DNA of 64,000 bases, from the IMG/VR virus record IMGVR_UViG_3300031576_000001, positions 124,001 through 188,000 of that record. One strand, given 5' to 3'. The notes under the pieces were generated by a model. That model searched no databases. It was not told the DNA's origin and saw nothing but the letters and a program-made list of their open reading frames with translations. The position numbers were made by a program, and so were the translations under genes. Position 1 is the first letter of the stretch. Every line of letters starts with the position of its first letter. Below, one piece after another: positions 1,990 through 62,066 of the stretch. The stretch comes from a virus.

Positions 1990-2038
1990 CCCCCCCCCTG
2001 TGCTAACGCCCACACACCCTCTTGGTAGCGTTACATAA

Positions 2039-2221
2039 CCTATACAGGGTTTCCATACGGGTCAAAGATGACCTTGCCACTATTTACGATGTTTTTATCA
2101 CTGTGCCCCTGGGCGGGGACTCCAGTGACGATCAAGCGGAAACTGTCAAAGTGTATGGAAGCTCAGGGGTCTCACCTTACCCCTCATGCAGGTGCAACCC
2201 TTTGCTACCTGGCGCTAAGGG
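2039..2221 (+). repeat. Repeated leader element, copy 1
   Basis: Conserved block from CTATACAG (2040-2047) through TTCCATAC (2051-2058) and TTTACGATGTTTTTATCA to GTATGGAA (2153-2160). It contains a hairpin CACTG-n-GCCCC / GGGG..C-CAGTG (about 2099-2127). A second hairpin, AGGGGT/ACCCCT, follows at about 2165-2185. The block ends 50-60 bases before the GTG at 2222, which is preceded by GGCGCTAAGGGG. The sequence between 2051 and 2160 is nearly identical to copy 2 at 21862. Copies 3 and 4 are at 39052 and 58791. Confidence 0.85.
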
Positions 2222-2992
2222 GTGCGGCGCAAGATCGTAACCATTGGTACGGACGGCTTCTGTGACTACCTGCGGGTAGACGAGGCCAAGTACAACCTGG
2301 GGGCGGTCTCTGTGTTGAAGCTGGTCACGGAGACGAGCGCTGACATTTGGGAAGCCAAGGACACGGTAGAGGCGTTCTTGCGTGACGGTGAGGCTACTTT
2401 TGCTGCTGACCTGGACAGGGTAGACGAGCTTTGCGCGCCAGCGCGCCCACGGTTTGCGTTTCAGTGGGACTGGTCAGCTCCCCCGCGCCCTGAGAGCAAA
2501 CACCTTTCCCCGGAGACAGTTTACATGGCACACGACCCTCTAAGCGACGCTACAAAGCAAGGCATTGCGAACATTGAGCGTGAGATTGGGCTCCTTGAGC
2601 AGTCCGCGCGTGACAACAAGGGCATCACGGCGGACCAAGCCAAGAGCACCGTCGCCGTACTCAAGAAGATCATCGGGGAAATGCGGTCCCCCGGGGGGTC
2701 TATCGCTGGCAAGGACCAGAGCGATAACAGCACGTACTACAAGCTAGGCGCAGAGGGTGAGCAGATCGAGGGTGTCTTTACCAAGATGCACAAGACGGCT
2801 GACAAGATTCGCGCCCTGTCTGCCGCTGGCAAGAACTTCAACGCCAAGAGGGCTCTTGACGACGTGTACGAGGTGACCACGGGGGTCACGGCGCTCCTAG
2901 ACACGCCCGACCTGGCTACGGTAACGCCCGAGATTCAGAAGCTAGCGAGCAGGGCGGACCACCTACACGGGCTGTTCTTCCCCAAGGGTTGA
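2222..2992 (+). CDS. Hypothetical protein, 256 aa
   Basis: Unrecognised. It starts at GTG 2222 behind TAAGGGG, directly downstream of repeat copy 1. The N-terminal ~90 residues are mixed alpha/beta with several aromatic residues (FQWDWSAPPRP). The C-terminal ~150 residues are strongly helical, Lys/Ala/Glu-rich and heptad-like (residues ~110-250), which suggests a coiled-coil or helical bundle. There is no signal peptide or membrane span. Its place just upstream of the tail tube candidate, interrupted only by the HNH gene, makes a virion or tail-assembly role plausible, but nothing in the sequence proves it. Confidence 0.7.
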   Translation: MRRKIVTIGTDGFCDYLRVDEAKYNLGAVSVLKLVTETSADIWEAKDTVEAFLRDGEATFAADLDRVDELCAPARPRFAFQWDWSAPPRPESKHLSPETVYMAHDPLSDATKQGIANIEREIGLLEQSARDNKGITADQAKSTVAVLKKIIGEMRSPGGSIAGKDQSDNSTYYKLGAEGEQIEGVFTKMHKTADKIRALSAAGKNFNAKRALDDVYEVTTGVTALLDTPDLATVTPEIQKLASRADHLHGLFFPKG

Positions 2993-3014
2993 GGCTGTGC
3001 TACTTGCGTGGGCG

Positions 3015-4103
3015 ATGACCCAAACCAAGCTGTGCCAAAGGTGCATAAAAGACCTCCCTCTAGAGTCTTTTTACACCCACAACGGCAAGTCGTCCTCCGC
3101 AGTCTGCAAGCCGTGCAAGCTCGAAGAGAGCAAGCTCAAGTACCACGACCCAGAGGAGCACAAGCGCCAGCTTGAAGTGCGCCTTGCTGCCCAAGCTCAG
3201 CGCAAGCTCGACGAGAAGCAAGTTCGCACCCACAAGACCTGTACCCTCTGCCACCAAGAGAAGCCCCTGGGTCAGTTCTACAAGGCGTTGGGCGCACCGC
3301 GACCTAGCTGCAAGGTGTGCGACGACTCCCGACGTAAACCTACACCCAAAGTGATAGCCCGCAAAGAGGCATGGGCCGCGAAGGTTGCGGAGCGCGAAGC
3401 TCAGGAAGCTCTGGCTTTGCAAGCCGTGGGCGAAACCAAGTTCTGCGAGGAGTGTCGTGTAGACCGCCCTGTGGCGTGCTTCTACGTACCCAAGAAAGGC
3501 AAGCCTTGTAGCCCCCTCTGTAAGTCCTGCCTACGCGAGGACTTGAAGCTCAGCCGGTCTGACCCAGAGCAACACCGGCAGAAGGTAGCTCTACGCCTTG
3601 AGGAGCGTCTAGCGCGCGACGTGCTGGCGCAAGAAGCTGAGAAGCTGATTGCCGCGAAGGTGTGTACCTGTTGCAAGGTCGAGAAAACTCTTGGTGCGTT
3701 TAGGGCGCACCGTGGCCTTTATGGTCGAAGTTCATACTGCCGAAGGTGTGAACAAAAAGCCGCCCGAGAGTATTGCAAGCAAAACGGAGAGGCTTTGCGC
3801 GCACGGGCTAAGGTCTGGCGTGATGCCAACCCTGAGAAGATCAAGGCTATCATCCACCGTCGTCGAGCACGGCAAGCCGCGCTCCCTGACACGCTGACGG
3901 AAAATCAGTGGAAAGACATTCTGGTGTACTTTGACTACCGCTGTGCATACTGCCTCAAGAAGCTAAACTCCCCCACACTCGACCATGTTATTGCAATGGC
4001 TCGCGGCGGTGGGACTACAGAGGAAAACTCCGTACCGGCCTGTGGTTCTTGCAATAGCAGTAAACATGATCGTCTTATCTTTAGCATGTTGGAAAGGGCT
4101 TAA
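3015..4103 (+). CDS. HNH endonuclease with four N-terminal zinc-knuckle repeats
   Basis: The 362-residue protein carries four CxxC...CxxC zinc knuckles in tandem: Cys7/10/31/34, ~75/78/97/100, ~143/146/169/172 and ~216/219/242/245. Charged helical linkers rich in Lys, Glu and Ala separate them. A C-terminal HNH domain follows: CAYC (~310-313), LDHVIAMARGG (~322-332, with the Asp-His pair), then N..PACGSCN..K (~340-350). HNH domains cut DNA using one metal ion. ATG 3015 is preferred over the in-frame GTG at 2997; TGTGCTAC lies 11 bases upstream. The gene is wedged into the tail operon four bases before the tail tube candidate, typical of a free-standing homing endonuclease. A terminase-associated HNH role is an alternative. 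Confidence 0.9.
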   Translation: MTQTKLCQRCIKDLPLESFYTHNGKSSSAVCKPCKLEESKLKYHDPEEHKRQLEVRLAAQAQRKLDEKQVRTHKTCTLCHQEKPLGQFYKALGAPRPSCKVCDDSRRKPTPKVIARKEAWAAKVAEREAQEALALQAVGETKFCEECRVDRPVACFYVPKKGKPCSPLCKSCLREDLKLSRSDPEQHRQKVALRLEERLARDVLAQEAEKLIAAKVCTCCKVEKTLGAFRAHRGLYGRSSYCRRCEQKAAREYCKQNGEALRARAKVWRDANPEKIKAIIHRRRARQAALPDTLTENQWKDILVYFDYRCAYCLKKLNSPTLDHVIAMARGGGTTEENSVPACGSCNSSKHDRLIFSMLERA

Positions 4104-5728: not shown

Positions 5729-7011
5729 CAAGTGCTGCCTCTGTCAAAGAGGCATATGAGCGTGAACAAGAAAAGCTACGACACGAAGGCAACCTAGAGG
5801 ATGACGACAGTTCGTTTCCTCTCCCCCAGGAGCCCGAGGTGGACCCCCGGGTCTACAAAAGTGTTGAGCCGCTCTTGTTCCGTGGCTTTCTTGCGTTGCC
5901 TGCCACGCTGGGCGATAACCTACGGGTCGTCTACAAGAGCCTCAACCACCATGAGTATGAGCGCCTACAGCTAACCCATGGGTCAAGGGACACTGACTTT
6001 TACGTAGACTTCCTGGCGCAGTCCACGTACCTCTTGGGGGGTCAGAACGTACTCTCTTGGGAGCACCGTGAGAAGGTCAAGCGGTTTTATGGGGAGGTGC
6101 CCCCTCCATTGCGTAACCGGATCTTGACCACGCTCTCTGAGTTGAACCGGCAGGCCAGTGACGGGGTGCGGCTCGTCGAGGCGTACGCCATGGAGACCCT
6201 CTCTCGGCTACGGTGGGTTCAATTGTACGGTCTGGACCTCACGTCAACGGCGGTAACGGGGGTAGAGGGCTCTTCCTTGCTGGGGTACAACTGGGGTCAG
6301 CTTCTCTGGCGGGCATTGAACCGGTACCAGGACACCCGAGAGGACATGGACAGGCATTGGGAGAACGCCAAATTCATCGGGGGGTGCTTTGCAGGCAAGG
6401 GTATCAACAAGGTCCATAACCAGGACCGGCGCCGCAAGCGCGAAGAGATTGAGAACCGTATCGCGCGGAAGGACCAAATCTTGCGTGAGGTTGTGCTACT
6501 TGAGAAGAGCCCTGAGAGGCGTGTCATGCGGGACGGGCACGTAGTCAAGTCAGCTCAAACGACCGAGGAGCTAGCCACCCAGCTTGAGCAGTCACTAAAG
6601 GGTGAGGAGGACTTTCACGACCGGGTTGTACGGGCTGTCGAAGAGTACCACGCCAAGGTCAGGGTTGACCGTGAGGCTGAGCTACAGCGGCTCTATGACG
6701 AGGCTGCCAGCAAGGCACAGGGTCAAGGGCTCACGGGCATTGTGGACCGTAAGGGTCTCTCCCGCGAAGAGGTTGAGCAGCGTATCGCCCGGACGAGGGC
6801 GATCATGGCTCAAGGAACGGCACAGAGAATGGTACGCCCCCCGCCGCCTAGTGAGAACCCCTACGAGCGTTTCCGTCAAGCGCCCGAGCAAAGCGAGCAA
6901 AGCGAGCAAAGCGAGCAAAGCGAGCAAAGCGAGCCTGGTAGCCCCAAGGGTGAGGTTCGTCCTTTGCCCCCTCTTAGGTCAAGATTATGGCAAAGGACAC
7001 TGAGGTTCTGA
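5725..7011 (+). CDS. Tail assembly chaperone-like protein 2
   Basis: 428 residues, GTG start overlapping the previous stop by four bases. The N-terminal half carries the segment VVYKSLNHHEYERLQL and a helical domain resembling the preceding gene product. A basic motif NQDRRRKREEIENRIARK (~233-250) and long charged helices follow. Near the C-terminus the DNA holds about five tandem copies of a 9-base unit, GAGCAAAGC (6887-6931), encoding repeated Glu-Gln-Ser. The last 25 bases overlap the tape measure start. Position and similarity to the neighbour suggest tape-measure chaperoning. A structural role at the tail initiator cannot be ruled out. Confidence 0.55.
   Translation: MTSAASVKEAYEREQEKLRHEGNLEDDDSSFPLPQEPEVDPRVYKSVEPLLFRGFLALPATLGDNLRVVYKSLNHHEYERLQLTHGSRDTDFYVDFLAQSTYLLGGQNVLSWEHREKVKRFYGEVPPPLRNRILTTLSELNRQASDGVRLVEAYAMETLSRLRWVQLYGLDLTSTAVTGVEGSSLLGYNWGQLLWRALNRYQDTREDMDRHWENAKFIGGCFAGKGINKVHNQDRRRKREEIENRIARKDQILREVVLLEKSPERRVMRDGHVVKSAQTTEELATQLEQSLKGEEDFHDRVVRAVEEYHAKVRVDREAELQRLYDEAASKAQGQGLTGIVDRKGLSREEVEQRIARTRAIMAQGTAQRMVRPPPPSENPYERFRQAPEQSEQSEQSEQSEQSEPGSPKGEVRPLPPLRSRLWQRTLRF
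6887..6931 (+). repeat. 9-bp tandem repeat, about five copies
   Basis: Tandem GAGCAAAGC units, in frame, encode five Glu-Gln-Ser triplets in the C-terminal linker of the second chaperone-like protein. Such a tract can gain or lose units by replication slippage without shifting the frame, so copy number may vary between isolates. Confidence 0.9.
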
Positions 7012-19588: not shown

Positions 19589-19933
19589 TCAGCCCACCGC
19601 GAGGAGAGCGTGACCCTTGTCGGTGACGCGGTAGAGGGTGTGATGCTCACCGTAGACCTCCAGGTACCCCTGAGCGACGGCGCGGTCCACCACGTTGACC
19701 CCGTGGAGGGGGTTGTGTTTGGCGCGGGCCTGGACGCCCATCCACCCCTTCTCCCCGTAGGCAAAGTGCCCGAGGGTCTGGCGGGAAGCGGTGATGTGCT
19801 TGCGGCACCCCGCATTCTTGACCACCCAAGCCACGAGCCCTTTGACGTGGCGGGGCAGGATGTTCATGCCCTCGTGCGCCCGGTAGGGGTGCTCGGTGGG
19901 GAGGCTGCTGAGAGAGAAGGTGGAGGTTGCCAT
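19589..19933 (-). CDS. Hypothetical protein, 114 aa, possible winged helix
   Basis: ATG 19933 is preceded by GCGTAAGAGGGG, the ribosome-site motif also found before 22058 and 58720. The protein contains HVKGLVAWVVKNAG, a basic central region with several His, and a C-terminal segment VAQGYLEVYGEHHTLYRVTDKGHALL, whose 'Y.VT.KG' ending resembles the last strand of winged-helix domains. DNA binding is therefore possible but not shown. Confidence 0.6.
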   Translation of the reverse strand: MATSTFSLSSLPTEHPYRAHEGMNILPRHVKGLVAWVVKNAGCRKHITASRQTLGHFAYGEKGWMGVQARAKHNPLHGVNVVDRAVAQGYLEVYGEHHTLYRVTDKGHALLAVG

Positions 19934-19964
19934 GACCCCTCTTACGCTCAGCCTACCTCACGAT

Positions 19965-20360
19965 TCACGGAATTCTCTGGTACGGGTCAGGGATGACCCT
20001 TGCCTTACGAGGGCTAGCGTCCGCCAAGAGGCTGTTTAGTTTCGTGGCTTGCTTTTGAAAAAACTGGGCTACGCGCTCCAATGCCCAGGTTTTTGCAACG
20101 TCGAGACTGCGCCTTGCGAGGCTTTTTGCGGGCATGTGCCAGACGGCAACCTCTTCGCAGGATTGGTAGCTCAACCAAGCGTACCACTTCCCGGTCAGCG
20201 CAGCGCCTTCCAGGGAAGGCGCGCCCCCCCAAGAGGACAGCTCGACGGCGAAGTTATGGTCAAGGTCATAGGTGTAGGTCGTAACACGCCCACACCCTTC
20301 CTGCTCGGTGTCGAGGAGAACCCTCCACCCCTTAGAGGCTTGTTTGTGGTTCATCACCAT
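19965..20360 (-). CDS. Hypothetical protein, 131 aa
   Basis: I chose ATG 20360, with GGAGAGGG six bases upstream. The frame remains open further upstream, but there it runs antisense-style through the preceding zinc-ribbon gene. The N-terminal part has beta-like segments (YTYDLDHNFAVELSSWGG, KWYAWLSYQS). The C-terminal part is a basic amphipathic helix (RRSLDVAKTWALERVAQFF). No family is recognised. It overlaps the stop of the upstream gene by about seven bases, so translation is probably coupled. Confidence 0.55.
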   Translation of the reverse strand: MVMNHKQASKGWRVLLDTEQEGCGRVTTYTYDLDHNFAVELSSWGGAPSLEGAALTGKWYAWLSYQSCEEVAVWHMPAKSLARRSLDVAKTWALERVAQFFQKQATKLNSLLADASPRKARVIPDPYQRIP

Positions 20361-21861: not shown

Positions 21862-22057
21862 CTAAACTATACAGTGTTCCCATATGGGTCAAAGATGACC
21901 CTGCCACTATTTACGATGTTTTTATCACTGAGCCCCGAGGCGGGGACTCCAGTGACGATCAAGCGGAAACCGTCAAAGTGTATGGAAGCTCAGGGGGTGC
22001 AAGGCGACCCCAGCAGAAAGTTGTGAACGGTACCCTTGGTTGAGTGTAAGAGGGGTT
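21862..22057 (+). repeat. Repeated leader element, copy 2
   Basis: Near-identical to copy 1 from CTATACAG (about 21867) to GTATGGAAGCTCAGGGG (about 21980-21996). Hairpin 1: CACTG-A-GCCCC / GGGG-A-C-TC-CAGTG (about 21926-21954). Hairpin 2: GGGGTGCAAGGCGACCCC (about 21993-22012). The second hairpin region and following GTTGTGAA match copy 4. A G-C pair in the loop-proximal position here is A-T there. The element ends at GAGTGTAAGAGGGG, the ribosome site for 22058. Confidence 0.88.
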
Positions 22058-22246
22058 ATGGAAAACCTCTCAGCCTTCAAGGTGACCGTCAAGGTGGGTC
22101 GCCGCACCCTGAGCTTTATCCGGTTCGCTCCTAGCCTGGAGGCGGTTGTGGTGGACGCCCACAGGGTTCTGAGCCAGGACTTTGCCCGCACCCAAGCCAA
22201 GCTCCTCTCGGTCGAGCCCACCCTGGACCCCCGGGTGACCTCGTGA
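22058..22246 (+). CDS. Hypothetical protein, 62 aa
   Basis: ATG 22058 is preceded by GTAAGAGGGG. This small protein has a beta-strand N-terminus (FKVTVKVGRRTLSFIRFAP) and a helical C-terminus. No family recognised. It lies directly behind repeat copy 2 and its stop overlaps the next start as GTGA (22243-22246), so the two are translationally coupled. The repeat element is likely to control both. Confidence 0.65.
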   Translation: MENLSAFKVTVKVGRRTLSFIRFAPSLEAVVVDAHRVLSQDFARTQAKLLSVEPTLDPRVTS

Positions 22247-31607: not shown

Positions 31608-32432
31608 TTGGCGATTCACGACTATTTCTTGTGCTACCCTTACCTACACGACTCCCACGGAGAGGTTACGCCTACCTTGCCCCACGCAGACATACATGGC
31701 ACCTACAACCGCTCACAACTCACGCGGTTCCTGACCTACGCCCGCTCACAGCTACCTTACGTAGAGGGGCGTATCCTACACCTAGAGGCTGAGGTTGAGC
31801 GTACCGGTCAGCTACTCATGGCACTTGACGCCAGCGGTAACCCTCTTGGGTACTCCTCGACCCCCCCTGGCTCGGTCGTTGACCGGCTTTTCAAGAGTTA
31901 CCTGGCGCAAGGCGGCTCCCCTCTCTTTGATTTGCAGCTACGGGCGATGTCTCAGCCCGTGTACTTGCAGAAGGGGGACGAGACGACGGCGCCTCAGCTT
32001 TTCAACAACGGAGAGGTTCTAGGCAGGGGCTACAACCTGGACGCCACGACGGGCGAGCTAATGTTTGGGGTACGGACCTGGCTAGATGACGCGCTGGGGA
32101 GCCGGCTTGGGTGGTTGGAGCGCCAGATCCGGCGCCACCAAGACTACCGTGACCAGCTTAGCGCTGAGGTTGCCCTACTCAGGCTCATCACTAGCCCGGC
32201 GGACACAGGGGGCTCCCTTGCAAACCTAGCTAACGAGCTAACTACCCTTCTCAGTGACCCCTTGTACCGCGCCGTCTATGACGACCTGGGCAAAGACCCC
32301 TTCGGTCGGCTCACCGCGGCGCCCTTTGCCGCGTATGACACCACGGGGGAGGCTGGCGAGACAAGAGCCCCCCAAGAGGAGTACGTGAAAACCAGCAAGG
32401 GTGTCGTGGTCCCTGGTCAGCGTAGCGTGTAA
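31608..32432 (+). CDS. Virion-region hypothetical protein, at least 274 aa
   Basis: The uninterrupted part begins at TTG 31608. With the two -1 shifts upstream repaired, the true protein would be about 60 residues longer. Residues after ~55 contain a coiled-coil segment (RILHLEAEVERTGQLLMAL) and a second helical part (WLERQIRRHQDYRDQLSAEVALL). The C-terminus is acidic with a short tail (APQEEYVKTSKG). The start of this frame includes YFLCYPYLHDSHGEV. No family is recognised. It sits between two structural proteins and the GNAT-fold gene, so a virion or assembly role is plausible. Confidence 0.6.
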   Translation: MAIHDYFLCYPYLHDSHGEVTPTLPHADIHGTYNRSQLTRFLTYARSQLPYVEGRILHLEAEVERTGQLLMALDASGNPLGYSSTPPGSVVDRLFKSYLAQGGSPLFDLQLRAMSQPVYLQKGDETTAPQLFNNGEVLGRGYNLDATTGELMFGVRTWLDDALGSRLGWLERQIRRHQDYRDQLSAEVALLRLITSPADTGGSLANLANELTTLLSDPLYRAVYDDLGKDPFGRLTAAPFAAYDTTGEAGETRAPQEEYVKTSKGVVVPGQRSV

Positions 32433-32484
32433 TAGCGCGCCCCTTCCCTCTGAGCGTCCCCCTTATGTTGAGCCTCTAGGTAAG

Positions 32485-33543
32485 ATGTTTTTCACGAGAC
32501 AAGCCCCAATCATAGTCAGACGCTACCTGGACCGGGTAGCCCAAGGTCAAGGTCAGGGTGACTCTGGTAAGGGGGGCGTCCCCGCGCAGTGGGTAGAATG
32601 GCTCAAAGCAGAGCACCAAGGCGGCAAAGAGAAGGTCGGCAACCCTAACGCTGACACCAAGAGCCGTTTCCCCCAGGTAAGCTACTCGACGGCGTTGAAG
32701 TATAAGCCCTTTTATCAGAAAGCGCTTGAGGAGTACAAGGAGTGGGTCAAAGATCAAGCTGGCAAGGGTAAGAAGGAAACCAAGCCCAAAGAGGAAGAGC
32801 CTAAGCCCGCCAAGAAAGCTGGCACGTCTATCTTGAAGACCGGGAAGCGTACCGTGGGCAAGGTGACTTACGAGTCCAAGCTAGACGAGCGCACCAAGAA
32901 GACGGTGGAGTCCCTGTGGGGCAAAGAGCCTCCTAGCATGGAGGACTTTCACGCAATGTTTGATATTGGGGGCGACCGCAAGACAAGTGTTCTCCTCAAA
33001 AATGGGTACAAGCCAGGCTCGATTGCGGTAGAGCTTACCTTTGAGGACAACAGCGGGAAAACCGTAGGTGCAGTCACCCGACTCTTTCACAAGTCGGGTG
33101 ACAAGCTACAGGTAACGCACGACCTTTTCAAGCTGGACGAGAGCCTACAAGGGAAAGGCGTGGGGCGTAAGGTTATCGAAAAGAGCCTCGATGACTACAA
33201 GAAAATGGGCGTTTCGCAAGTCAAGCAAGAGAGTGCGTGGGTGGGGCGGTACACTTGGGCGAAGATGGGCTATCAAGCTGACAACATGGACGAGGTTAAA
33301 GAGGGAGCCCGCACCCCCCTCTTGTCGCTTGGTTATTCGGAGAAGCAAGTAGACGACATTTTGCGGGACGAAGTACCAAACCTGAGTGCGCTAGCTGACC
33401 TGACTACCCCCTCTGGGCGCAAGATCGGCAAGGAGGTTCTCCTCCATGACGACATGCCCAACGTCATGGTACACCTCAACCTGGACGAGAGTGACCCAGG
33501 GTACAAGCGTATGAAAGCCTACCTGGCAAAGGACAAGAGCTAA
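32485..33543 (+). CDS. GNAT-fold protein in the structural operon
   Basis: 352 residues, ATG 32485 behind TAGGTAAG; earlier codons in the frame overlap the previous gene. The N-terminal ~120 residues are basic and helical (PIIVRRYLDRVAQGQGQ, ALEEYKEWVKDQAGKGKK), followed by a Lys/Pro/Glu linker. The C-terminal half carries an acetyltransferase motif A: LDESLQGKGVGRKVIEKSL (~215-233, Q.KG.G pattern for the acetyl-CoA pyrophosphate) and SAWVGRYTWAKMGYQ (~251-265), the usual GNAT ending. GNAT enzymes acetylate amines. The substrate is unknown. Its place among virion genes raises the possibility of a packaged, injected enzyme. The short gene after it follows by two bases. Confidence 0.72.
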   Translation: MFFTRQAPIIVRRYLDRVAQGQGQGDSGKGGVPAQWVEWLKAEHQGGKEKVGNPNADTKSRFPQVSYSTALKYKPFYQKALEEYKEWVKDQAGKGKKETKPKEEEPKPAKKAGTSILKTGKRTVGKVTYESKLDERTKKTVESLWGKEPPSMEDFHAMFDIGGDRKTSVLLKNGYKPGSIAVELTFEDNSGKTVGAVTRLFHKSGDKLQVTHDLFKLDESLQGKGVGRKVIEKSLDDYKKMGVSQVKQESAWVGRYTWAKMGYQADNMDEVKEGARTPLLSLGYSEKQVDDILRDEVPNLSALADLTTPSGRKIGKEVLLHDDMPNVMVHLNLDESDPGYKRMKAYLAKDKS

Positions 33544-33545
33544 TT

Positions 33546-33770
33546 ATGGACACGGTAGCAGCCAAGAAGAAAGACAAGACGCCAAAGGCACCCGCCCAGG
33601 ACGATCTAGCGAAAGACCTTGAGGATCTAGCGGACAAGGGCAAAGAGAAAGTCACCGTGCCTGCGCCCGCCTCCAAGGGTGACAAAAAGAAGCCCAAGCA
33701 GAAGAAAACAGCGGCAGAAGCCATTGTGGACCGGTATCTTGGGGTATCCGACGACACTGAAGCTGTGTAA
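33546..33770 (+). CDS. Small Lys/Ala-rich protein, 74 aa
   Basis: Low-complexity, strongly charged protein (KKKDKTPKAP, DDLAKDLEDLADKGKEK, KKKPKQKKTAAEA). It is probably disordered with a short C-terminal helix. It starts three bases after the GNAT-fold gene's stop and resembles that protein's Lys-rich linker in composition. It may be a partner or a DNA/polyanion-binding peptide; no function can be assigned. Confidence 0.6.
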   Translation: MDTVAAKKKDKTPKAPAQDDLAKDLEDLADKGKEKVTVPAPASKGDKKKPKQKKTAAEAIVDRYLGVSDDTEAV

Positions 33771-33797: not shown

Positions 33798-34919
33798 ATG
33801 AGTTTTGACCGGCAGATAGACCAAGCGTGTCCGCACCAAGTCCACGAAGAGGTACTCTTTACCGAGGATGACCTTCGTACCGTGAGACCCTTGCGTCCCA
33901 TTGCCTCTGCGGGCTCTGTGAGGGTGTGGCTCAACGGTCAAACCTCCCCGGTGCCCTCGTTTGGTACACTTCTGCCTGCTGTGCTGCCAGGCACCCGCAG
34001 TGGACCTTTCACGTACCCCACCGGCAGCCTCTTGCTCCGGGTCAACGGGGCAGCCCCACAGACAATCCTCTTCCCTGGCGCCACGGGCGAGAGTCCTGAA
34101 AGGGTAGCCAGGCTGTGCAACGTCCAGGTCAAGGGTTGCCGTATGACCGTGAGCAACCAAAGGCTCATGTTGACCACGGATGAGGCTGGCAGACCGTCAA
34201 CCCTCTGGCTAGAGCCTACCCCCCTCGCGACCACGCTAGGCTTCAAGGCACAGAGGGAGGTACGGGGTCAAAGTCTACACCCAGGGTGGGTCTTGGTAAG
34301 GGACCAGAACACGCTAGACGACCGACCAACCCGGCTCATTCTCTTTGATAAGCCTCTCACGGCGTACATGAACCACGTAGAGGTCTCCTACAGCACGATC
34401 CAGCAAGAGTGCCGGCGCTGCGGGGGCACGGGGTACGAGTACGACTGGCGCTTGACGCGCAAGGGTAACTACGTAGAGGTACGTGACGAGGCACTACTCA
34501 TTCAGGAGTTCCTCAAGGACTTGCTGACCATACGTGGCTCTAACCCTTTTCACGGGTGGTATGGCTCTGAGCTAATCGAGCGCATAGGGTCCAAGATTGT
34601 GGACGGCGCCCTTCTACAGAACCTCATTGCCTCGGACGTTAGCCAGACGTTCAATCTCTGGCAGACGGTCAAGAAGGGGCAAGAGACGGTGCAACGACTC
34701 TCGGATGAGGAGTACCCTTACCGGCTCCTTTCGGTGCGTGCCAGGCAAAGCCAGGAAGACCCTACGGTGGTCTTTGTAGAGTTTACGGTGCAAAACCGGT
34801 CCCTGAAGAACATCATCCTAGAGAGGGGCTTCCGTGTTCCTGACGCTAGCGGGCTCCTTCTCTCGGCGGGGCAGGGTACGTTGCGGCAGTCCCTTCTATC
34901 GCCCACGCTGGTAGCGTGA
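33798..34919 (+). CDS. Baseplate wedge protein, gp25-like C-terminal domain
   Basis: 373 residues. The C-terminal ~130 residues have the gp25/W pattern: LLTIRGSNPFHGWYGSELIERIG, then IASDVSQTFNLW...QRLSDEEYPYRLLSV and VFVEFTVQNRS, as in the small lysozyme-fold-like wedge protein that starts sheath assembly. A CRRCGGTG motif (~205-212) forms half of a zinc finger just before it. The N-terminal ~190 residues are beta-rich. It lies 29 bases before the J-like gene, the usual gp25-gp6 order of contractile tails. The domain call is based on pattern and context, without a search. Confidence 0.65.
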   Translation: MSFDRQIDQACPHQVHEEVLFTEDDLRTVRPLRPIASAGSVRVWLNGQTSPVPSFGTLLPAVLPGTRSGPFTYPTGSLLLRVNGAAPQTILFPGATGESPERVARLCNVQVKGCRMTVSNQRLMLTTDEAGRPSTLWLEPTPLATTLGFKAQREVRGQSLHPGWVLVRDQNTLDDRPTRLILFDKPLTAYMNHVEVSYSTIQQECRRCGGTGYEYDWRLTRKGNYVEVRDEALLIQEFLKDLLTIRGSNPFHGWYGSELIERIGSKIVDGALLQNLIASDVSQTFNLWQTVKKGQETVQRLSDEEYPYRLLSVRARQSQEDPTVVFVEFTVQNRSLKNIILERGFRVPDASGLLLSAGQGTLRQSLLSPTLVA

Positions 34920-34948: not shown

Positions 34949-37900
34949 ATGGCTACAGCTCCCCAAGTTTACAGCCGCGACGGTGTAACCCTCGTTACCA
35001 ACCTGACGTACACCACCAACGAGACCGCTGTGACCATCACGGGCGTAGTCACGGTGCAAACGGTGGACATTCAGGTTTCGGTCAACGGGGGTAACTTTGT
35101 ATCCGACCCCGCCCTCATCCTCTTTGACCTGACCGCTTTCACGTTTCCCAACCCGGCTAGCTACCCCACGGGGTTCGTTCTTCAGCCTGGGACCAACACG
35201 TTTCAGTTCCGAACCATTGACATTCTTGGTGCCGTGTCCCCTCCGGCGACCGTGACGGTCCTTAGCATTGCCGCCTCTTTCATCAACAACGTCACCGTCC
35301 CTAGCGGTATCCGCCTGCGTAGACGCCGCGACGCAATAGACCTCCTCATCGCCAAGCCGGGGTTGGAGTTCTCAGCCAACGGGACACCGCTACCCAGCAC
35401 CTTCCGGGGGTATAACGTGTACGCCTCTTCGTCGCCAGGGGGCGAGGGTACGGGGTACTACAAGGTCAACGAGAACCTGTTGACCCTCACGGACGGGGCG
35501 TACTTTGAGGAAGACGCCTCCACGGTGTTCTCCGACACGACAACCTGGGCAAACACCAACCAACAGCTTCTCCGGGTCAAGGTCTCCGAAGAGGATGAGT
35601 TTGGTAACGAGCTAGCGATCAGGCTGGACAGAACCTACGCAATAGGCATTTACAGCGACAAGCTACGCTACACGTCGGGCGTAGAGACCGTCACTTTGAT
35701 TGACTTCGTTAGGTTTAGGCACACGCGCACGGGGGGCGTGGGTCTCATCAATGAAGACCAGTTCTCCAACGTAGATGACACAGAGCCGCTGTACTACGTG
35801 GTCACGGGCGTTTACTTTGACCCTCTGACCAACACGGTCTTTGAGTCACCGTACAGCCAAGAGGTACTGGGGGCTCCCCTTGTTCTGGACACTGCCATTC
35901 TGGACTTGCCGCAGGTGACCAGGCTGCAAATCCAGACGAGCTTTATCCAGTCGGTCAACCGGGTTTTGCAAGAGCTGTCCCTGATACCGGGCTCGACCAT
36001 GAGGGACGTAACGATTGACCCCTTCTCCTCTGAGTTTGAGCGGGTGTGGTTTCTCCTCGACTTTGTTCACCGTAGCCAGAGCTTCCTCACGCTCTTGCAG
36101 ATTGACGACCCTAACGGGGACGGTACCAGCGACCCCGTAGCCCAGACAGCGTACAAGGTAGCCCTCAAGGCGGCTCTGGGTTTTACGTCGGACAGCGCCA
36201 CGCAAGCGCTCATTGACACGGCGTTTGAGAAACTAGGGTCCAACCAGGACGTAACACGGCTCCCCGGCAGACCCGCGGTAGGTCAGGCTGTTTTTTACAG
36301 TGAGGCGCGGCCCACCGTGGACCTCACTGTGCCTGCGGGCACCACGGTTACCTCTCGGGCGGACGAGGATCTAGGGCTCTCCACCCAGAGGTTCCGGGTG
36401 GGGGGCTCCTTCGTACTCACCGCGGCGAACGCAGACGCCTTCTACAATTTTGACACCAAGAGGTACGAGATTGTAGCGGACATTGTAGCCGAGTCCAGTG
36501 GAGGGGCGGGTAACGTGCCAGCGGGTCAGATTGACTCGGCTAGCGGTGTCAATGGGCTCTCCGTGATCAACACGGAGGCTACCGTGTTCGGGCTAGACCG
36601 GGAGACCAACGCTCAGCTAGCGGAGCGAGCCATCCTCAAGACCTCTTCGGTGGACACGGGCACAGAGGGGGGCTACCTCCTGGCGGTCATCGGTCAGCCC
36701 GGGGTGCTCAAAACCAAGATCGTCAAGTCGGGTGACCCCCTCATGATGAGGGATTACGACGATCTACGCAAGAAGCACATTGGCGGGAAGGTGGACATCT
36801 GGATACAAGGGCTAAGGGAGCGTCAGGTCACGGAGCAGTTTGCGTTCACCTTTGAGATAGCCCGCGACGTGCTTTGCACCATCGTGGACCTCCCTACGTT
36901 GACGCTCCGTGTCAACGACTCACGGGTAACGCCTACCACGCCGATCCTCGAAATCCTGAACAACCCGGTCAATGGGTTGGGGGTACGAAACGTCACACTG
37001 GGTCAGGATTACGACGTGACAGGGGTAATCATCATTGACTACCAGACCTTCAAGCTCAACACGGCGATACCTCAGCCCGTGACCTTCAAGGATGACCTGA
37101 TTATTGCGGACTACAGGTTCCGTAGTTCGCCCGACTTTGCATTCACCTTTCAGCCGATCAGAAGGGTTACCTCTGTGGTGGGTGAAGTCTCGGGCTCACT
37201 CAACTCCACGACAGGCTACAAGGTGTTCAAGGCAGAAGACCCCTTGTTCAACGGGGAGAGCACGCTAGCCAAAGACTTCCTCAGAATCACACAGAGCAAT
37301 GGGGTGCCCACGGGTCAGGGCATAGCGGTCAACGCAGAGGTGCATGTGCTCATCGGGTTCTTTGAGGAGCCCTTGAACTTTATCGGGATCAACACCCAGA
37401 CCATCAGGGTCTTCTCGGCTGACCGTACCGTGGAGTACAACGGACCTGAAGACCCCTTGCCGGACTTCACGATTGTGGTGGGTACCCCTACGCGCCCTGT
37501 GAAGATCGTAAGGACGCCCGCCTCTCTCATCGTCAATGGCCAGACGGTGAGCGTGGATTACGAGCACGACGAGAACATGGTGGTGACCTACGTGGTCAAT
37601 GACCTCCTCCAAACCGTGCAAGGCGTCGTCAACAAGATGCGTCACGTCACGGCGGACGTGGTAGTCAAACAAGCCGTGGACAACCCCCTCTCTTTGGAAA
37701 CCACGGTTCAACTAAAGGCTGGCGCCACCAAAGATAAGGTGGACCCCCAGATCCGTACCAGGGTCAGCCAAGAGCTAAACCAAAAACTCATCGGTCAAGG
37801 GAGCGCTCAGTCCGACATTATCGCCGTGGTAGACAACACCAGCGGGGTTGACTTTGAGATCGTACCCCTCGCCAGAATGGCGTACAGCGACGGCGCCCGG

Positions 37901-38395
37901 AGAATCCGTGAGACTCTTGCCTCAGAGTTCTTGCCCGTGCCCGCCATGAACCAGGGAGGTCAGTCGGTTTACCTTTCAGAGGTATCCTTGCAGTTCCCTA
38001 CCACGGACGGCGGGGGTAACGAGACCGAGCACAAAGGCGTCTTCCAAGACGATGTAGCCCTCACCCTCTCCGCTGACACGGTAAGCGTAGGCGCTGCGCC
38101 TGACCAAGCCTTCATTATCGGAGCGAAAGGTGCCTCCCTCCCGGGCTACAGTGATGACGTGACCCTGCAAAACGCGGGCTTTGTCACGGTAGAAGCACGG
38201 GACGCAGAACGGGCGAAGAGGTCCGGTAACCGTGTCCTTGTGGCCCTGCTCACCCCAGACACGCCAGCCTCGCACCTCTACGCCGTCTCCTACGTGGTCA
38301 GGGGCGACAAGGGCGCCAAAGACATACCCGCCGCCCAGGTCGAAGCGATCAGCCTGGGTTCCCTGGTTATTACCTACTCCACGCCCAAGATTTGA
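34949..38395 (+). CDS. Baseplate J-like (gp6-like) wedge protein
   Basis: 1148 residues. The segment GGAGNVPAGQIDSASGVNGL (~518-537), followed by NTEATVFGLDRETNAQLAERA, is the hallmark of the Baseplate_J family (G..GNV.AG.I.....V.G...V.N......G.D.ET...L..R). These proteins dimerise to form the wedge ring around the hub. The N-terminus (~1-330) adds beta domains with an immunoglobulin-like feel. The C-terminus after ~780 is a further beta extension. Starts at ATG 34949, 29 bases after the gp25-like gene. Its end overlaps the convergent minus-strand gene by 26 bases. Confidence 0.85.
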   Translation: MATAPQVYSRDGVTLVTNLTYTTNETAVTITGVVTVQTVDIQVSVNGGNFVSDPALILFDLTAFTFPNPASYPTGFVLQPGTNTFQFRTIDILGAVSPPATVTVLSIAASFINNVTVPSGIRLRRRRDAIDLLIAKPGLEFSANGTPLPSTFRGYNVYASSSPGGEGTGYYKVNENLLTLTDGAYFEEDASTVFSDTTTWANTNQQLLRVKVSEEDEFGNELAIRLDRTYAIGIYSDKLRYTSGVETVTLIDFVRFRHTRTGGVGLINEDQFSNVDDTEPLYYVVTGVYFDPLTNTVFESPYSQEVLGAPLVLDTAILDLPQVTRLQIQTSFIQSVNRVLQELSLIPGSTMRDVTIDPFSSEFERVWFLLDFVHRSQSFLTLLQIDDPNGDGTSDPVAQTAYKVALKAALGFTSDSATQALIDTAFEKLGSNQDVTRLPGRPAVGQAVFYSEARPTVDLTVPAGTTVTSRADEDLGLSTQRFRVGGSFVLTAANADAFYNFDTKRYEIVADIVAESSGGAGNVPAGQIDSASGVNGLSVINTEATVFGLDRETNAQLAERAILKTSSVDTGTEGGYLLAVIGQPGVLKTKIVKSGDPLMMRDYDDLRKKHIGGKVDIWIQGLRERQVTEQFAFTFEIARDVLCTIVDLPTLTLRVNDSRVTPTTPILEILNNPVNGLGVRNVTLGQDYDVTGVIIIDYQTFKLNTAIPQPVTFKDDLIIADYRFRSSPDFAFTFQPIRRVTSVVGEVSGSLNSTTGYKVFKAEDPLFNGESTLAKDFLRITQSNGVPTGQGIAVNAEVHVLIGFFEEPLNFIGINTQTIRVFSADRTVEYNGPEDPLPDFTIVVGTPTRPVKIVRTPASLIVNGQTVSVDYEHDENMVVTYVVNDLLQTVQGVVNKMRHVTADVVVKQAVDNPLSLETTVQLKAGATKDKVDPQIRTRVSQELNQKLIGQGSAQSDIIAVVDNTSGVDFEIVPLARMAYSDGARRIRETLASEFLPVPAMNQGGQSVYLSEVSLQFPTTDGGGNETEHKGVFQDDVALTLSADTVSVGAAPDQAFIIGAKGASLPGYSDDVTLQNAGFVTVEARDAERAKRSGNRVLVALLTPDTPASHLYAVSYVVRGDKGAKDIPAAQVEAISLGSLVITYSTPKI

Positions 38396-38708
38396 GTAAG
38401 TGCCTCGCCCCGTGTAAGCAAGGCGTGGTGTCGGAACCCTCTTCGGTCGCCGTGCTGGACAACTTCTGCGGAGAGAGCAGCATACTGGCGTAAGCCTTGC
38501 ATACGAGAACGTCGAGACGGCGTAGACGATTAGCCTCTTTGCTCAGGCGGATAGCCTCCGCTTGGTCGCGTGCCTGGCAGATCAGGTCGGCAACATCCCT
38601 CATGTGGATCACGCCCAAGAGGAGGTACATGAAGTTCTCGACGACTCCGTTGAGCTTGTCTAGCTCGTAAGGGGTGGCGCCGTGGTTGGGTTTGGGGTTC
38701 TCGGTCAT
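38370..38708 (-). CDS. Hypothetical protein, 112 aa
   Basis: ATG 38708 overlaps the preceding stop (ATGA), which fixes the start; the upstream continuation of the frame is shadow sequence. The product is helical: YELDKLNGVVENFMYLLLGV, then DLICQARDQAEAIRLSKEANRLRRLDVL. No motif is recognised. It is the second gene of a minus-strand pair controlled by repeat copy 3 and ends 26 bases inside the convergent J-like gene. Confidence 0.6.
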   Translation of the reverse strand: MTENPKPNHGATPYELDKLNGVVENFMYLLLGVIHMRDVADLICQARDQAEAIRLSKEANRLRRLDVLVCKAYASMLLSPQKLSSTATEEGSDTTPCLHGARHLLKSWAWSR

Positions 38709-38974
38709 AACTCGTCCTCTACACCGCAGGCGTTCAGGTCGCTCGGAGGGAACACACGCACTTCCACCGTCTTGACCTCGGGCGTGACCCCAAGGTACTT
38801 TTTGACCCAAGCCTCCCCGTTGCCCTTGCGCACGTCCATCTTGAAGACCGGAGGCAGCCCGTGAAACCTTGGGTAGGGTAGCGGGGCGTCGCCCGGGGGG
38901 TACAGGAACACCTTGTCATGCGTGGGGTACACGTAAACCACCACGCGAGCAATCGGCAGACTGAGAGGCAACAT
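38705..38974 (-). CDS. Hypothetical protein, 89 aa
   Basis: ATG 38974 lies behind GGTGTAAGGGGGTGTC, the ribosome-site motif shared by genes downstream of the repeat elements. The N-terminus is hydrophobic (LPLSLPIARVVVYVY) and the rest is mixed beta with Pro. It could be a small soluble barrel; no motif is recognised. It is the first gene after repeat copy 3 on the minus strand and is coupled to the next gene by an ATGA overlap. Confidence 0.6.
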   Translation of the reverse strand: MLPLSLPIARVVVYVYPTHDKVFLYPPGDAPLPYPRFHGLPPVFKMDVRKGNGEAWVKKYLGVTPEVKTVEVRVFPPSDLNACGVEDEL

Positions 38975-39181
38975 GACACCCCCTTACACCGCCTCTCGGG
39001 GGGTTGTCTAGAGCCCTGTAGTATGGGTCTCTTTACACCCACCTCGACCTACAAGTGTATGGAGAAATTCTGTCGGTGCACACTGGAGTCCTCCCCTCGG
39101 GGCTCACTGATAAAAACATCGTAAAAAGTGGCAGGGTCATCTTAGACCTACCCGGAAGTTCCATATGGGTCTGTATGGAAA
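38975..39181 (-). repeat. Repeated leader element, copy 3
   Basis: Read on the minus strand, it contains TTTACGATGTTTTTATCA, then a hairpin with GAGCCCC / GGAGGACTC (about 39084-39110) and a second hairpin TGGGT/ACCCA (about 39022-39042) before the start at 38974. It diverges most from the others: one arm has CAGTG instead of CACTG, breaking a pair. It also carries an extra palindrome-like CCATA...TATGG at the upstream end (39160-39177). Confidence 0.8.
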
Positions 39182-39193
39182 CCAAGAGGGCTC

Positions 39194-58420: not shown

Positions 58421-58720
58421 TCAGGGGGTAACGGTTTTCTTGCTCTGGCGCGGGAGGCTGATACGCCCGACCCCGCGGATCTTGGCGAGCGCCGCACAAG
58501 CCTCTTTGAGGCTGCTGCACTCTTTGACCGCTTTGCAGGCAGTACGGCAGTCGTAGATCGTCCAGGCAATGTACTTGACCGGACCACCGCCCAGCTTAGC
58601 GTGTCCAGACCAGTAACGCCCCACCTCGAAGCTGACCATGTACGCCTGGTCGGCGGTCTTGTACGCCCTCTCCCCCCAGGGGATGAGCTTCTCGGTCTTG
58701 GTGCTGTCGGTGGTGTCCAT
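58421..58720 (-). CDS. Hypothetical protein, 99 aa
   Basis: ATG 58720 follows GCGTAAGAGGGGGG, immediately downstream of repeat copy 4. The sequence has mixed alpha/beta character: AYMVSFEVGRYWSGHAKLGG, then KYIAWTIYDCRTACKAVKEC and a helical end. No motif is recognised. Its leader DNA matches that of the 22058 gene over the second hairpin and beyond, so both genes probably share regulation. Confidence 0.6.
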   Translation of the reverse strand: MDTTDSTKTEKLIPWGERAYKTADQAYMVSFEVGRYWSGHAKLGGGPVKYIAWTIYDCRTACKAVKECSSLKEACAALAKIRGVGRISLPRQSKKTVTP

Positions 58721-58910
58721 GCCCCCCTCTTACGCTTACCCTAGCTCCGAATTCACAACTTTTGTTGGGGTCACCTTGTACCCCCGGCGTCTCCATACAC
58801 TTTCACGGTTTCCGTGTTCTGCACACTGGAGTCCCCCTCTAGGGGCTCAGTGATAAAAACATCGTAAAATGTGCCAGGGTCATAGGAGACACCTCCGGTT
58901 TTTCCATACG
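58721..58910 (-). repeat. Repeated leader element, copy 4
   Basis: Minus-strand copy. It contains TTTACGATGTTTTTATCA, then hairpin CACTG-A-GCCCC-TAGA-GGGGG..TC-CAGTG (about 58833-58853), then GTATGGAG. A second hairpin, GGGGTACAAGGTGACCCC (about 58767-58786), follows, then AAAGTTGTGAA. The loop-proximal A-T pair replaces G-C of copy 2. The ribosome site GCGTAAGAGGGG lies just before the start at 58720. Confidence 0.85.
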
Positions 58911-58912
58911 TC

Positions 58913-59299
58913 CTAGGTAGGCTCACCAAGAGGGTTGCGTTCGTTGTAGAGCCGGCAAGCGGTCTCGTGGGTACAGGGGAGACGTTGCCACCAAAGAACC
59001 CCCTTGTCGGGCACGCTGGTGTACCCCCAGAAGGTGTTCTCTCCCTCGTAGGGGACGGCGGGTACAAGCCAGCCGATCTGGTCACCCTCCCCGCTAGCGT
59101 AGGGGCTACGCCAGCCGGGGTCGTGGCTCTTGGCTTGGGCTTTCTCAGCGCAGAGCGCGCAGAAGAGGTCCGTGTAGTTTGCGCAAGTGTTGTGCTCACG
59201 CCACAGGCGGACGTCCCTCGCGCCGCACCCGTCGCAGGCGTAAGCCTGGGGTGTCGCCGGGTTCTGGTAGCTGAAGTCTCGGAAGTTGCGTTCTGGCAT
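58913..59299 (-). CDS. Hypothetical protein with zinc ribbon, 128 aa
   Basis: ATG 59299 is chosen; the upstream TTG in the same frame overlaps the preceding gene. Cys pairs CDGCGARDV (~23-31) and FCALCAEKAQ (~46-55) form a treble-clef or ribbon-type zinc site. The rest is rich in Trp, Gly and Tyr (GWLVPAVPYEGENTFWGYTS), with CTHETACRL near the C-terminus. Metal or nucleic acid binding is likely, function unknown. It ends at the boundary of repeat copy 4. Confidence 0.6.
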   Translation of the reverse strand: MPERNFRDFSYQNPATPQAYACDGCGARDVRLWREHNTCANYTDLFCALCAEKAQAKSHDPGWRSPYASGEGDQIGWLVPAVPYEGENTFWGYTSVPDKGVLWWQRLPCTHETACRLYNERNPLGEPT

Positions 59300-59768
59300 A
59301 GCCCTCAACTACACCGAGGATCTCTTGGGCTGCCGTGATGAGGTCTGAGGTGAGACCTACCCGGGGGTCGGTTTGCAGGAAGTTAGGACTACCTACAAAG
59401 AGGGGTAGGTCATCAATCACCACGTAGGTTTGGCATGGCGTAAGGTGAGCTTGAAGGAACCTGCGGATTTCCTGGGCCTTATTGGGTGTACCTGTGCGTG
59501 GGGTAACGTGGGCTAGTTCCCCGAGAAAGCCGTGGGTTGAGAGCCACCCTTGACACTGCTCGACGGAGAACAGGGGGTACCAGTGAGAGGAGAGCACGAA
59601 CACTACGCCCTCTTGGACGAGACCATTAAGGAGGCACACCTTGGAGGTCATGAGGAGTCGCCCGGGGTAGAAGCTGTCCACGTCCCGCTGGCGACTTTGG
59701 CGGCAAAGGTGCTCCGTGGTGTTGAGCACACCGTCAAAATCCACGAGAACGAAGCGCGGTAGGGTCAT
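59196..59768 (-). CDS. HAD-family phosphatase-like protein (Swiss-Army-Knife RNA-repair HAD type)
   Basis: ATG 59768 with AAGGAG eight bases upstream. Motif I VLVDFDGVLNT gives Asp10 and Asp12, both intact. Motif II is VLSSHW (Ser60). A basic helix with KAQEIRRFL (Lys97, Arg102/103) follows, and motif IV is YVVIDD (Asp119/Asp120). The layout fits small HAD domains associated with RNA-repair enzymes, which act as phosphatases on RNA ends. The last ~35 residues look Arg/Pro-rich and overlap the next gene by 104 bases. One extra base would end it at about 59305. A second, degenerate copy is at 61403. Confidence 0.72.
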   Translation of the reverse strand: MTLPRFVLVDFDGVLNTTEHLCRQSRQRDVDSFYPGRLLMTSKVCLLNGLVQEGVVFVLSSHWYPLFSVEQCQGWLSTHGFLGELAHVTPRTGTPNKAQEIRRFLQAHLTPCQTYVVIDDLPLFVGSPNFLQTDPRVGLTSDLITAAQEILGVVEGYARTQLPRLQLPEPGDTPGLRLRRVRREGRPPVA

Positions 59769-59819
59769 GTGGGTTAGACTCCTTCTGTACACCCTCTGAG
59801 AGAGGAAAGGTTACACACG

Positions 59820-61061: not shown

Positions 61062-61448
61062 ATGACCACGATAGCTGAACGTGTTGCCAGTCGCGCCGCC
61101 GCCTCTCCGCAGAACGGAGTGCAGTGGGTACGTGATGAGATCCTCATTCAGAAGTGCTCTACGGGGAAGACACCTATCGTCGAGGTCGCGGCGTACTTGC
61201 ACAACATCATCAAGAGCAGCCAAGAGATACACAAGCTGCTTAGTGAGGCTACAAAGAATGCCCAGGATGCCGTGAGTGGTGGCGACACTATCACGGCTCA
61301 GGATTTGGAGAGGGCGATCTACAAAGAGGCTGTGCTGCCGGCGGGGGGTGAAGACCCTCTGGGCAAGCTGCTCGCCAAGGTGATTGCCCATGGGGACTAC
61401 GTTTACTTACCCTTGGCTTTGGAAACGGGCGCAGTCCCCTTCTTGTGA
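61062..61448 (+). CDS. Hypothetical protein, 128 aa
   Basis: ATG 61062 is two bases after the previous stop. The protein is mostly helical and slightly basic: ERVASRAAASPQNGVQWVRD, then VEVAAYLHNIIKSSQEIHKL. No motif is recognised. It is convergent with the degenerate HAD gene, with an overlap of 46 bases. It is likely co-transcribed with the holin-like and anchored genes. Confidence 0.6.
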   Translation: MTTIAERVASRAAASPQNGVQWVRDEILIQKCSTGKTPIVEVAAYLHNIIKSSQEIHKLLSEATKNAQDAVSGGDTITAQDLERAIYKEAVLPAGGEDPLGKLLAKVIAHGDYVYLPLALETGAVPFL

Positions 61449-61996
61449 CTACGTGCCTTGACGGGTTTGAAGTGCTCAGGGGGTGGCTCCCTGGGTCGCT
61501 TGATCTTGGTGACGGGCTTAGCTGACGGGTCGAGGAGGTTGATTGCCTGGCAGAGGTTCTCTGAGCAAAGACCTAGCGCCGGGTTGACCTTGACGAGGCG
61601 GGGGGCGTAGTCAGGCATGAACTTGAAGACCTCTTCGCTGTCCAGGGCGACCCAAGAGGTTGCGGGGTGCTCAGCGAGGAACCTGCGGATCGTGGTGGCT
61701 TTGGCGGGCTCTAGCTTGTGATTGACCAGGGCAGACACTTCCCCAGTAAAGCCGTGGCTTTTCAGGTGCGTGTTTAGCTGCTCCACGTCATACCGTGCCC
61801 ACCACCGAGAGGTCACCACGACCTTACCCTTACCTACCAAGTAGTTCAGCCTGCGAACTAGAGGAGGGCAGAGGCGTTGAGCAGGTTGTCTCTTGAGCCC
61901 CTCTGGTGACAGCCTCTTGGCTAGGTTGCTCAGGTACACAGGGGTATTCAATACCCCATCCAGTTCTAGGAAGATGAACTTTACGGGCTCCGTCAT
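61403..61996 (-). CDS. Degenerate HAD-family paralog
   Basis: 197 residues, ATG 61996. It aligns along its length with the gene at 59196: FIFLELDGVLNTPVYL versus VLVDFDGVLNT, VVVTSRWWARYDVEQL versus VFVLSSHWYPLFSVEQ, HGFTGEV versus HGFLGEL, IRRFLAEH versus IRRFLQAH, and WVALDSEEVF versus YVVIDDLPLF. The nucleophile-position Asp of motif I is Glu (Glu11), and the second motif IV Asp is Ser (Ser120). In HAD enzymes the first Asp forms the phospho-intermediate, so catalysis is probably lost or altered. The C-terminus is a Lys/Pro-rich tail (KIKRPREPPPEH) that could bind nucleic acid. Confidence 0.72.
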   Translation of the reverse strand: MTEPVKFIFLELDGVLNTPVYLSNLAKRLSPEGLKRQPAQRLCPPLVRRLNYLVGKGKVVVTSRWWARYDVEQLNTHLKSHGFTGEVSALVNHKLEPAKATTIRRFLAEHPATSWVALDSEEVFKFMPDYAPRLVKVNPALGLCSENLCQAINLLDPSAKPVTKIKRPREPPPEHFKPVKARSHKKGTAPVSKAKGK

Positions 61997-62066
61997 GGTT
62001 TTCAGACTCAGAAAGTACACCGAGGTAGCCTCTTCGCCTGAGAGGGGGTAGCCTTAGCCTTTAGCC

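Follow-up and report, generated by a model that had tools for sequence, protein, structure and literature searches.

A repeated hairpin-rich element and a promoter-like start cassette as a candidate control module for small genes of a jumbo phage

The stretch of DNA analyzed here (the window, 64,000 nucleotides) spans positions 124001-188000 in a virus record of 322,633 bp and carries four of the six copies of a hairpin-rich element of about 190 bases, each of which stands upstream of a small gene (Table 1). The window also encodes a Baseplate_J protein (34949-38395), for which we recovered 46 related loci in IMG/VR, many of them on contigs of 200-450 kb and the closest with about 59% amino-acid identity at best. 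In the annotated phage collection, its top match was to an uncultured phage of 485 kb, and the next were to Tunturiibacter phage Tunturi_5 and Bacillus phage G. Since these matches are to large phages and are distant at best, the source is, judging from protein similarity, a jumbo phage of bacteria without a close sequenced relative in the collections searched. Elsewhere in the window, a two-gene pair at 32401-33770 (+) looks inserted; homologs of its neighbors (31608-32432 and 33798-34919) adjoin closely in most relatives. Within an open reading frame, the 9-mer GCTCGCTTT is repeated about six times in tandem at 6870-6934 (-). The HAD_SAK_2 domain (HAD domain of Swiss Army Knife RNA repair proteins) is found in two genes, 59196-59792 (-), which stands upstream of element copy c5, and 61403-62020 (-).

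A preliminary description had reported a repeated block with an invariant core at four sites of the window. Both observations held: the 18-nt core, TTTACGATGTTTTTATCA, is exact at all four sites (c2 to c5), and dinucleotide shuffles gave zero matches even with three mismatches allowed. Its author had proposed a search for additional copies in the full genome, and this recovered two exact cores beyond the window, at record positions 2232-2249 (-) (c1) and 244996-245013 (+) (c6), so that the whole record, which is possibly incomplete, has six exact cores and zero near-copies. A blastn search with the whole element recovered the identical six copies and nothing else of comparable length. The copies align without gaps over 135 columns, some parts being only 55-65% identical, and the positions invariant across all six are distributed unevenly (16/30 in the 30 bases before the core, 18/18 in the core, and 18/30, 7/35, and 7/22 in successive blocks beyond it). 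We distinguish an A-type (c1, c2, and c3), a B-type (c4 and c6, 95% identical), and a mosaic copy (c5).

Table 1. Element copies, start cassettes, and downstream genes in the window
Feature	Position in window	Strand	Remarks
Element copy c2	2017-2187	+	Core 2083-2100; A-type; terminal hairpin inverted; downstream cassette degenerate
Element copy c3	21862-22014	+	Core 21910-21927; A-type
Element copy c4	39021-39190	-	Core 39108-39125; B-type; CCATAC for GTATGG
Element copy c5	58764-58934	-	Core 58851-58868; mosaic; closing stem of unrelated sequence GGTGTCTCC/GGAGACGCC
Cassette of c3, GTGAA-N16-GTGTAAGAGGGGTTATG	22023-22060	+	-35-like box at core+113; ATG 22058
Cassette of c5, GTGAAT-N15-GCGTAAGAGGGGGGCATG	58718-58756	-	-35-like box at core+112; ATG 58720
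Cassette-only form without upstream element	19931-19968	-	ATG 19933
Degenerate cassette of c4, GTGTAAGGGGG		-	ATG 38974
Small gene after c2	2222-2992	+	256 aa; GTG start 2222; no family match
Small gene after c3	22058-22246	+	62 aa; no family match
Small gene after c4	38705-38974	-	89 aa; minus-strand island in plus-strand virion module
Small gene after c5	58421-58720	-	99 aa; minus-strand island

The distance from the core to the start codon is 147-151 nt in five copies (c1, c3, c4, c5, and c6, all with ATG) and 139 nt in c2 (GTG), and the strand of the element is that of the downstream gene in every copy. As this spacing is fixed and the intervening sequence is partly random in its identity (31% over its last 30 columns), the length from element to start is held more tightly than the sequence. 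Spacing and strand thus give good support to the earlier suggestion that dispersed units of small genes are marked by a cassette in steady orientation and at a steady distance. That every copy lies between two genes of its own strand is true in the window but fails at 245 kb, where an opposite-strand gene begins about 45 bp past the upstream end of c6. The described hairpins were likewise recovered in part: a CACTG..CAGTG hairpin whose loop varies and one of the GGGGT/ACCCC type each occur in most copies, but the latter does not have a uniform orientation, its loop being reverse-complemented in c2, and the GTATGG said to follow the first hairpin is replaced in c4 and c6 by CCATAC.

Copies dispersed on both strands, their inverted repeats, and the inter-copy recombination suggested by the mosaic c5 and the nearly identical c4 and c6 would suit a duplicated site with a role in replication, partition, packaging, or recombination that lies between genes by chance, or else a mobile cassette that spreads with accessory genes. 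We consider this decidedly improbable, as neither the fixed distance to the start codon nor the constant gene orientation would be expected and the downstream proteins are mutually unrelated. A comparison of the proteins flanking the elements found no similarity among them, and related mobile genes were rejected as carriers on this ground. The gene after c1 (L084:1601-2101, minus strand) can be read without a stop across a second start cassette and on into another small protein, and its 166-aa frame may therefore contain an internal promoter.

The interval down to the start codon had been described as one continuous leader. The last ~45 nt ahead of the start codon are an independent cassette, more numerous than the element, with a second, separate motif, GTGAA-N16-GCGTAAGAGGGGTTATG; the weaker blastn matches of the whole element fall mostly in the 30 bases immediately preceding the start codon. 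A search with GTGAA-N{14-18}-GCGTAA recovered 13 sites, each with a spacer of 16, and one with GTGA-N{17-21}-GTAAGNGG recovered 16 sites, all of one length though five were allowed (control, 0 in both cases). The consensus is GTGAATC..........AGCGTAAGAGGGGTTATGA (also written GTGAATC..AGCGTAAGAGGGGTTATG), with an A/T-rich stretch just 5' of the cassette (66% A+T in the last 10 bp). There are about 20 cassettes in total, 19 of them clear copies (including that of c6 and two further variants) and those of c2 and c4 degenerate. Nearly all stand at a constant distance ahead of an ATG, where a small protein of 33-299 aa begins. Six of the approximately 20 carry the upstream element, two of these six being the degenerate ones, and in c1, c3, c5, and c6 the GTGAA (-35-like) box lies 112-113 bp after the start of the core.

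In its TGAA and CGTA boxes and their nearly equal spacing, the cassette is like the Bacillus subtilis SigW promoter consensus, TGAAAC-N16,17-CGTA (PMC2375139), and as a bipartite motif it resembles an ECF-type promoter fused to a start codon. It differs from SigW/ECF-type promoters in a spacer rigid at one length, in extended boxes (GTGAATC and AGCGTAAG), and in its fusion to the start codon at a fixed distance; the spacing of TGAAT/C...CGTAA is constant in 16 sites and one base shorter than that of SigW when the hexamer is read as TGAATC. Beyond the window, the phage encodes a 215-aa protein with sigma-70 region 4 (PF04545, 1.1e-13; L141:1435-2082, genome 58756-59403), possibly with a second region-4-like helix-turn-helix. 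A search of the phage for sigma region 2 detected none, so that of the two regions (2 and 4) of a cognate ECF sigma factor, region 4 alone was found. The protein is kept in 13 of the 15 related jumbo phage contigs tested, with about 42-50% identity, and the relatives that have it lack the cassette (none above control level). Because it is common to relatives without the cassette, recognition of the cassette may not be its role: either its specificity differs among phages, or another factor, perhaps the host's, would read the cassette.

Neither the element nor the cassette was recovered elsewhere. Searches of IMG/VR with the core or extended core (in scans that may omit very near relatives of the record), of GTDB genomes, and of the phage collection found no homologs of the element, and the covariance-model search in relatives that had been proposed for it found none in 28 related phage contigs (best E value of 0.05, not credible over that many records). 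Rfam gave no match at or above the gathering threshold in the window and nothing credible at E values up to 5 around the six copies; a group I intron, ribozyme, or HEARO-type RNA, being without Rfam support, was rejected, and the HNH gene near c2 (2997-4103) has no counterpart at the other copies examined. The cassette was not above control level in relatives, a search of IMG/VR found no homologs of it elsewhere, and repeated 12-mers in 80 kb of each of four relatives included no similar multi-copy start cassettes. In a related phage contig of 323 kb, there are two CRISPR-like arrays that differ in their repeats (L158:17700-18170, minus strand, and L160:3757-3990, plus strand) and, outside the array, four solitary partial repeats, TTGCTCGCTGCGGCGAGAC (L159:8563, L159:4994, L160:3457, and L160:2070), which could be RNA anti-CRISPR-like or mini-array units.

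We then consider the folding of the element, which bears on whether it acts as DNA or RNA. The largest of several inverted repeats occupies alignment columns 47-75 (11 pairs, 5-nt loop). A structured 5' leader RNA, transcribed from a promoter within or ahead of the 5' portion of the element, in which the hairpins and closing stem control termination, antitermination, or translation, is possible if on balance unlikely; the GTGAA..GCGTAA cassette would then be a second promoter or a translation-start element. Consistent with such a leader, 93% of the cells in the stems of four hairpins pair, compared with 31-49% when the partners are slid; the strands of element and gene always agree; and the closing stem is significant in three copies (c1, P = 0.014; c2, P = 0.002; c5, P = 0.014) and is built from two unrelated sequences, that of c5 being entirely different. 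The hairpin at columns 84-94 has two pairs changed on both sides, but all of these changes come from the B-type copies c4 and c6 and represent one event. The number of covarying pairs among the six copies does not exceed that in shuffles, although the covariation score surpassed almost all of the shuffles (1 of 500), in a control that ignores relatedness. The MFE z values for c1 to c6 are -4.2, -1.9, -1.4, +0.4, -3.1, and -0.2 on the sense strand and -3.9, -1.9, -2.1, -0.5, -1.7, and -1.6 on the opposite strand; the fold is convincing in two copies (c1 and c5) and weak in four, with z near zero in c4 and c6. No folding specific to the sense strand was found across the six copies, and the inverted repeats therefore do not favor the transcribed strand. 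The 18-nt core, the best-conserved part, is mostly unpaired, the surroundings of c3 yielded neither a sigma-70-like promoter nor an intrinsic terminator, and the promoter-like motif stands downstream of the element. In its strongest form, in which the element is a new class of phage structured RNA (an antiterminator-like or ligand- or protein-sensing leader) made from an unrecognized internal promoter and switching six dispersed accessory units together, the leader is distinctly unlikely.

Two further RNA-level readings bear on the same features. A family of six paralogous small noncoding RNAs of ~150-190 nt, ending at the GGGGT/ACCCC hairpin with the promoter of the next gene directly behind, would accommodate the multiple hairpins, the gapless length, and the position of that hairpin at the end of the element just upstream of the cassette; however, there is no T-run terminator, Rfam match, or recognized promoter, and the strict tie to gene starts is left unexplained, which makes it improbable. 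A conserved upstream micro-ORF (MTLPLFTMFLSLSP...) acting as an attenuator peptide is highly improbable: although the in-frame segment ATGACCCTG..ATGTTTTTATCA is open in 6/6 copies, the end of the frame varies (after SP in c5, about 26 aa in c1), amino-acid-changing substitutions outnumber silent ones, and no constant ribosome-binding site lies ahead; the variable ends and substitutions led us to disfavor it. A pairing of an upstream CCCTCTT with AAGAGGGG at the start was dropped, as CCTCTTGG is abundant throughout the window; the octamer CCTCTTGG/CCAAGAGG occurs 55 times against 24.8 expected under a fourth-order model, and CGGAGAGG/CCTCTCCG is likewise enriched (28 against 8.1).

The reading that we favor, at roughly even odds (about 0.5), is that element and cassette together constitute a cis-regulatory DNA module, specific to this lineage, that serves the small accessory gene units of the jumbo phage. 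Its direct basis is the copy number, gapless length, fixed spacing, rigid one-length cassette, and inverted repeats; further points for DNA are the folding on both strands, the pieces inverted between copies, the opposite-strand gene close upstream of c6, the likeness to SigW promoters, and the sigma region-4 protein. Counting against it, hairpin arms are kept while loops vary and the closing stem of c5 is rebuilt, as RNA would show. Since the promoter-like motif lies between element and start codon in 4/6 copies, the main transcript probably starts past the element; with a start near the ATG, upstream control at the DNA level is a likelier role for the element than that of a 5' leader. Of the earlier proposal of a regulatory RNA or promoter-leader, the cassette marking dispersed units survives, but the transcribed leader is made less likely by the downstream promoter-like motif and the strand-neutral folding; its own refuting conditions gave a mixed outcome, the additional genome copies being in its favor and the lack of homologs in the 28 related contigs not. 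We envisage that each unit would open with an ECF-like promoter, GTGAA-N16-GCGTAA, fused to GAGGGGTTATG, from which the transcript would start at or just before the ATG, and that six of the approximately 20 units would add the ~190-bp element upstream. Its core and inverted repeats would bind one or more phage or host regulators, which, once bound, might raise or time expression of the units together. The degenerate cassettes of c2 and c4 imply that the element cannot serve only that promoter.

Six copies at a fixed spacing suggest a switch by which scattered accessory genes are coordinated, not a known RNA family. HEARO and omega RNAs and other upstream structured RNAs are alike in placing a hairpin-rich block of ~150-200 nt before an open reading frame, but the element has no Rfam match, small non-endonuclease downstream genes, and no fold supported by covariation. 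The phage antitermination RNA put of HK022, whose two hairpins act on RNA polymerase shortly after the promoter, likewise places adjacent hairpins ahead of phage operons, but in our phage the promoter-like cassette is downstream of the element, and a link in sequence or fold would be conjectural. Little is understood about the accessory genes scattered in virion modules of jumbo phages, including the means of their expression separately from the structural operons; to this, a portable start cassette to which a precisely spaced upstream module can be added would, if true, be a concrete answer. The nearest known analog is the SAS/ESAS system of cluster K mycobacteriophages, in which the 13-bp SAS, GGGATAGGAGCCC, lies within 3-9 bp of start codons and the ESAS is an element of ~50 bp with 17-bp imperfect inverted repeats separated by a spacer of mostly 4-13 bp (PMC3203893). 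Its authors favored protein-DNA binding over mRNA hairpins (PMC3203893), and promoter boxes were later proposed within the ESAS, making these putative promoters (PMC11373665). Both systems have a short cassette directly before many start codons, a subset with a conserved inverted-repeat element upstream, and copies private to one phage lineage. By sequence, however, they are unrelated, GGGATAGGAGCCC not being found in the cassette GTGAATC..AGCGTAAGAGGGGTTATG; here the outer element has a length of ~190 bp, several inverted repeats, and an 18-bp core that is invariant, compared with the one 17-bp pair of the ESAS, and the promoter-like boxes are in the inner cassette rather than the outer element. 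We therefore regard the module as analogous to SAS/ESAS, neither homologous to it nor a member; if our reading is true, a very different phage would have arrived a second time, by way of unrelated sequence, at the same two-layer plan.
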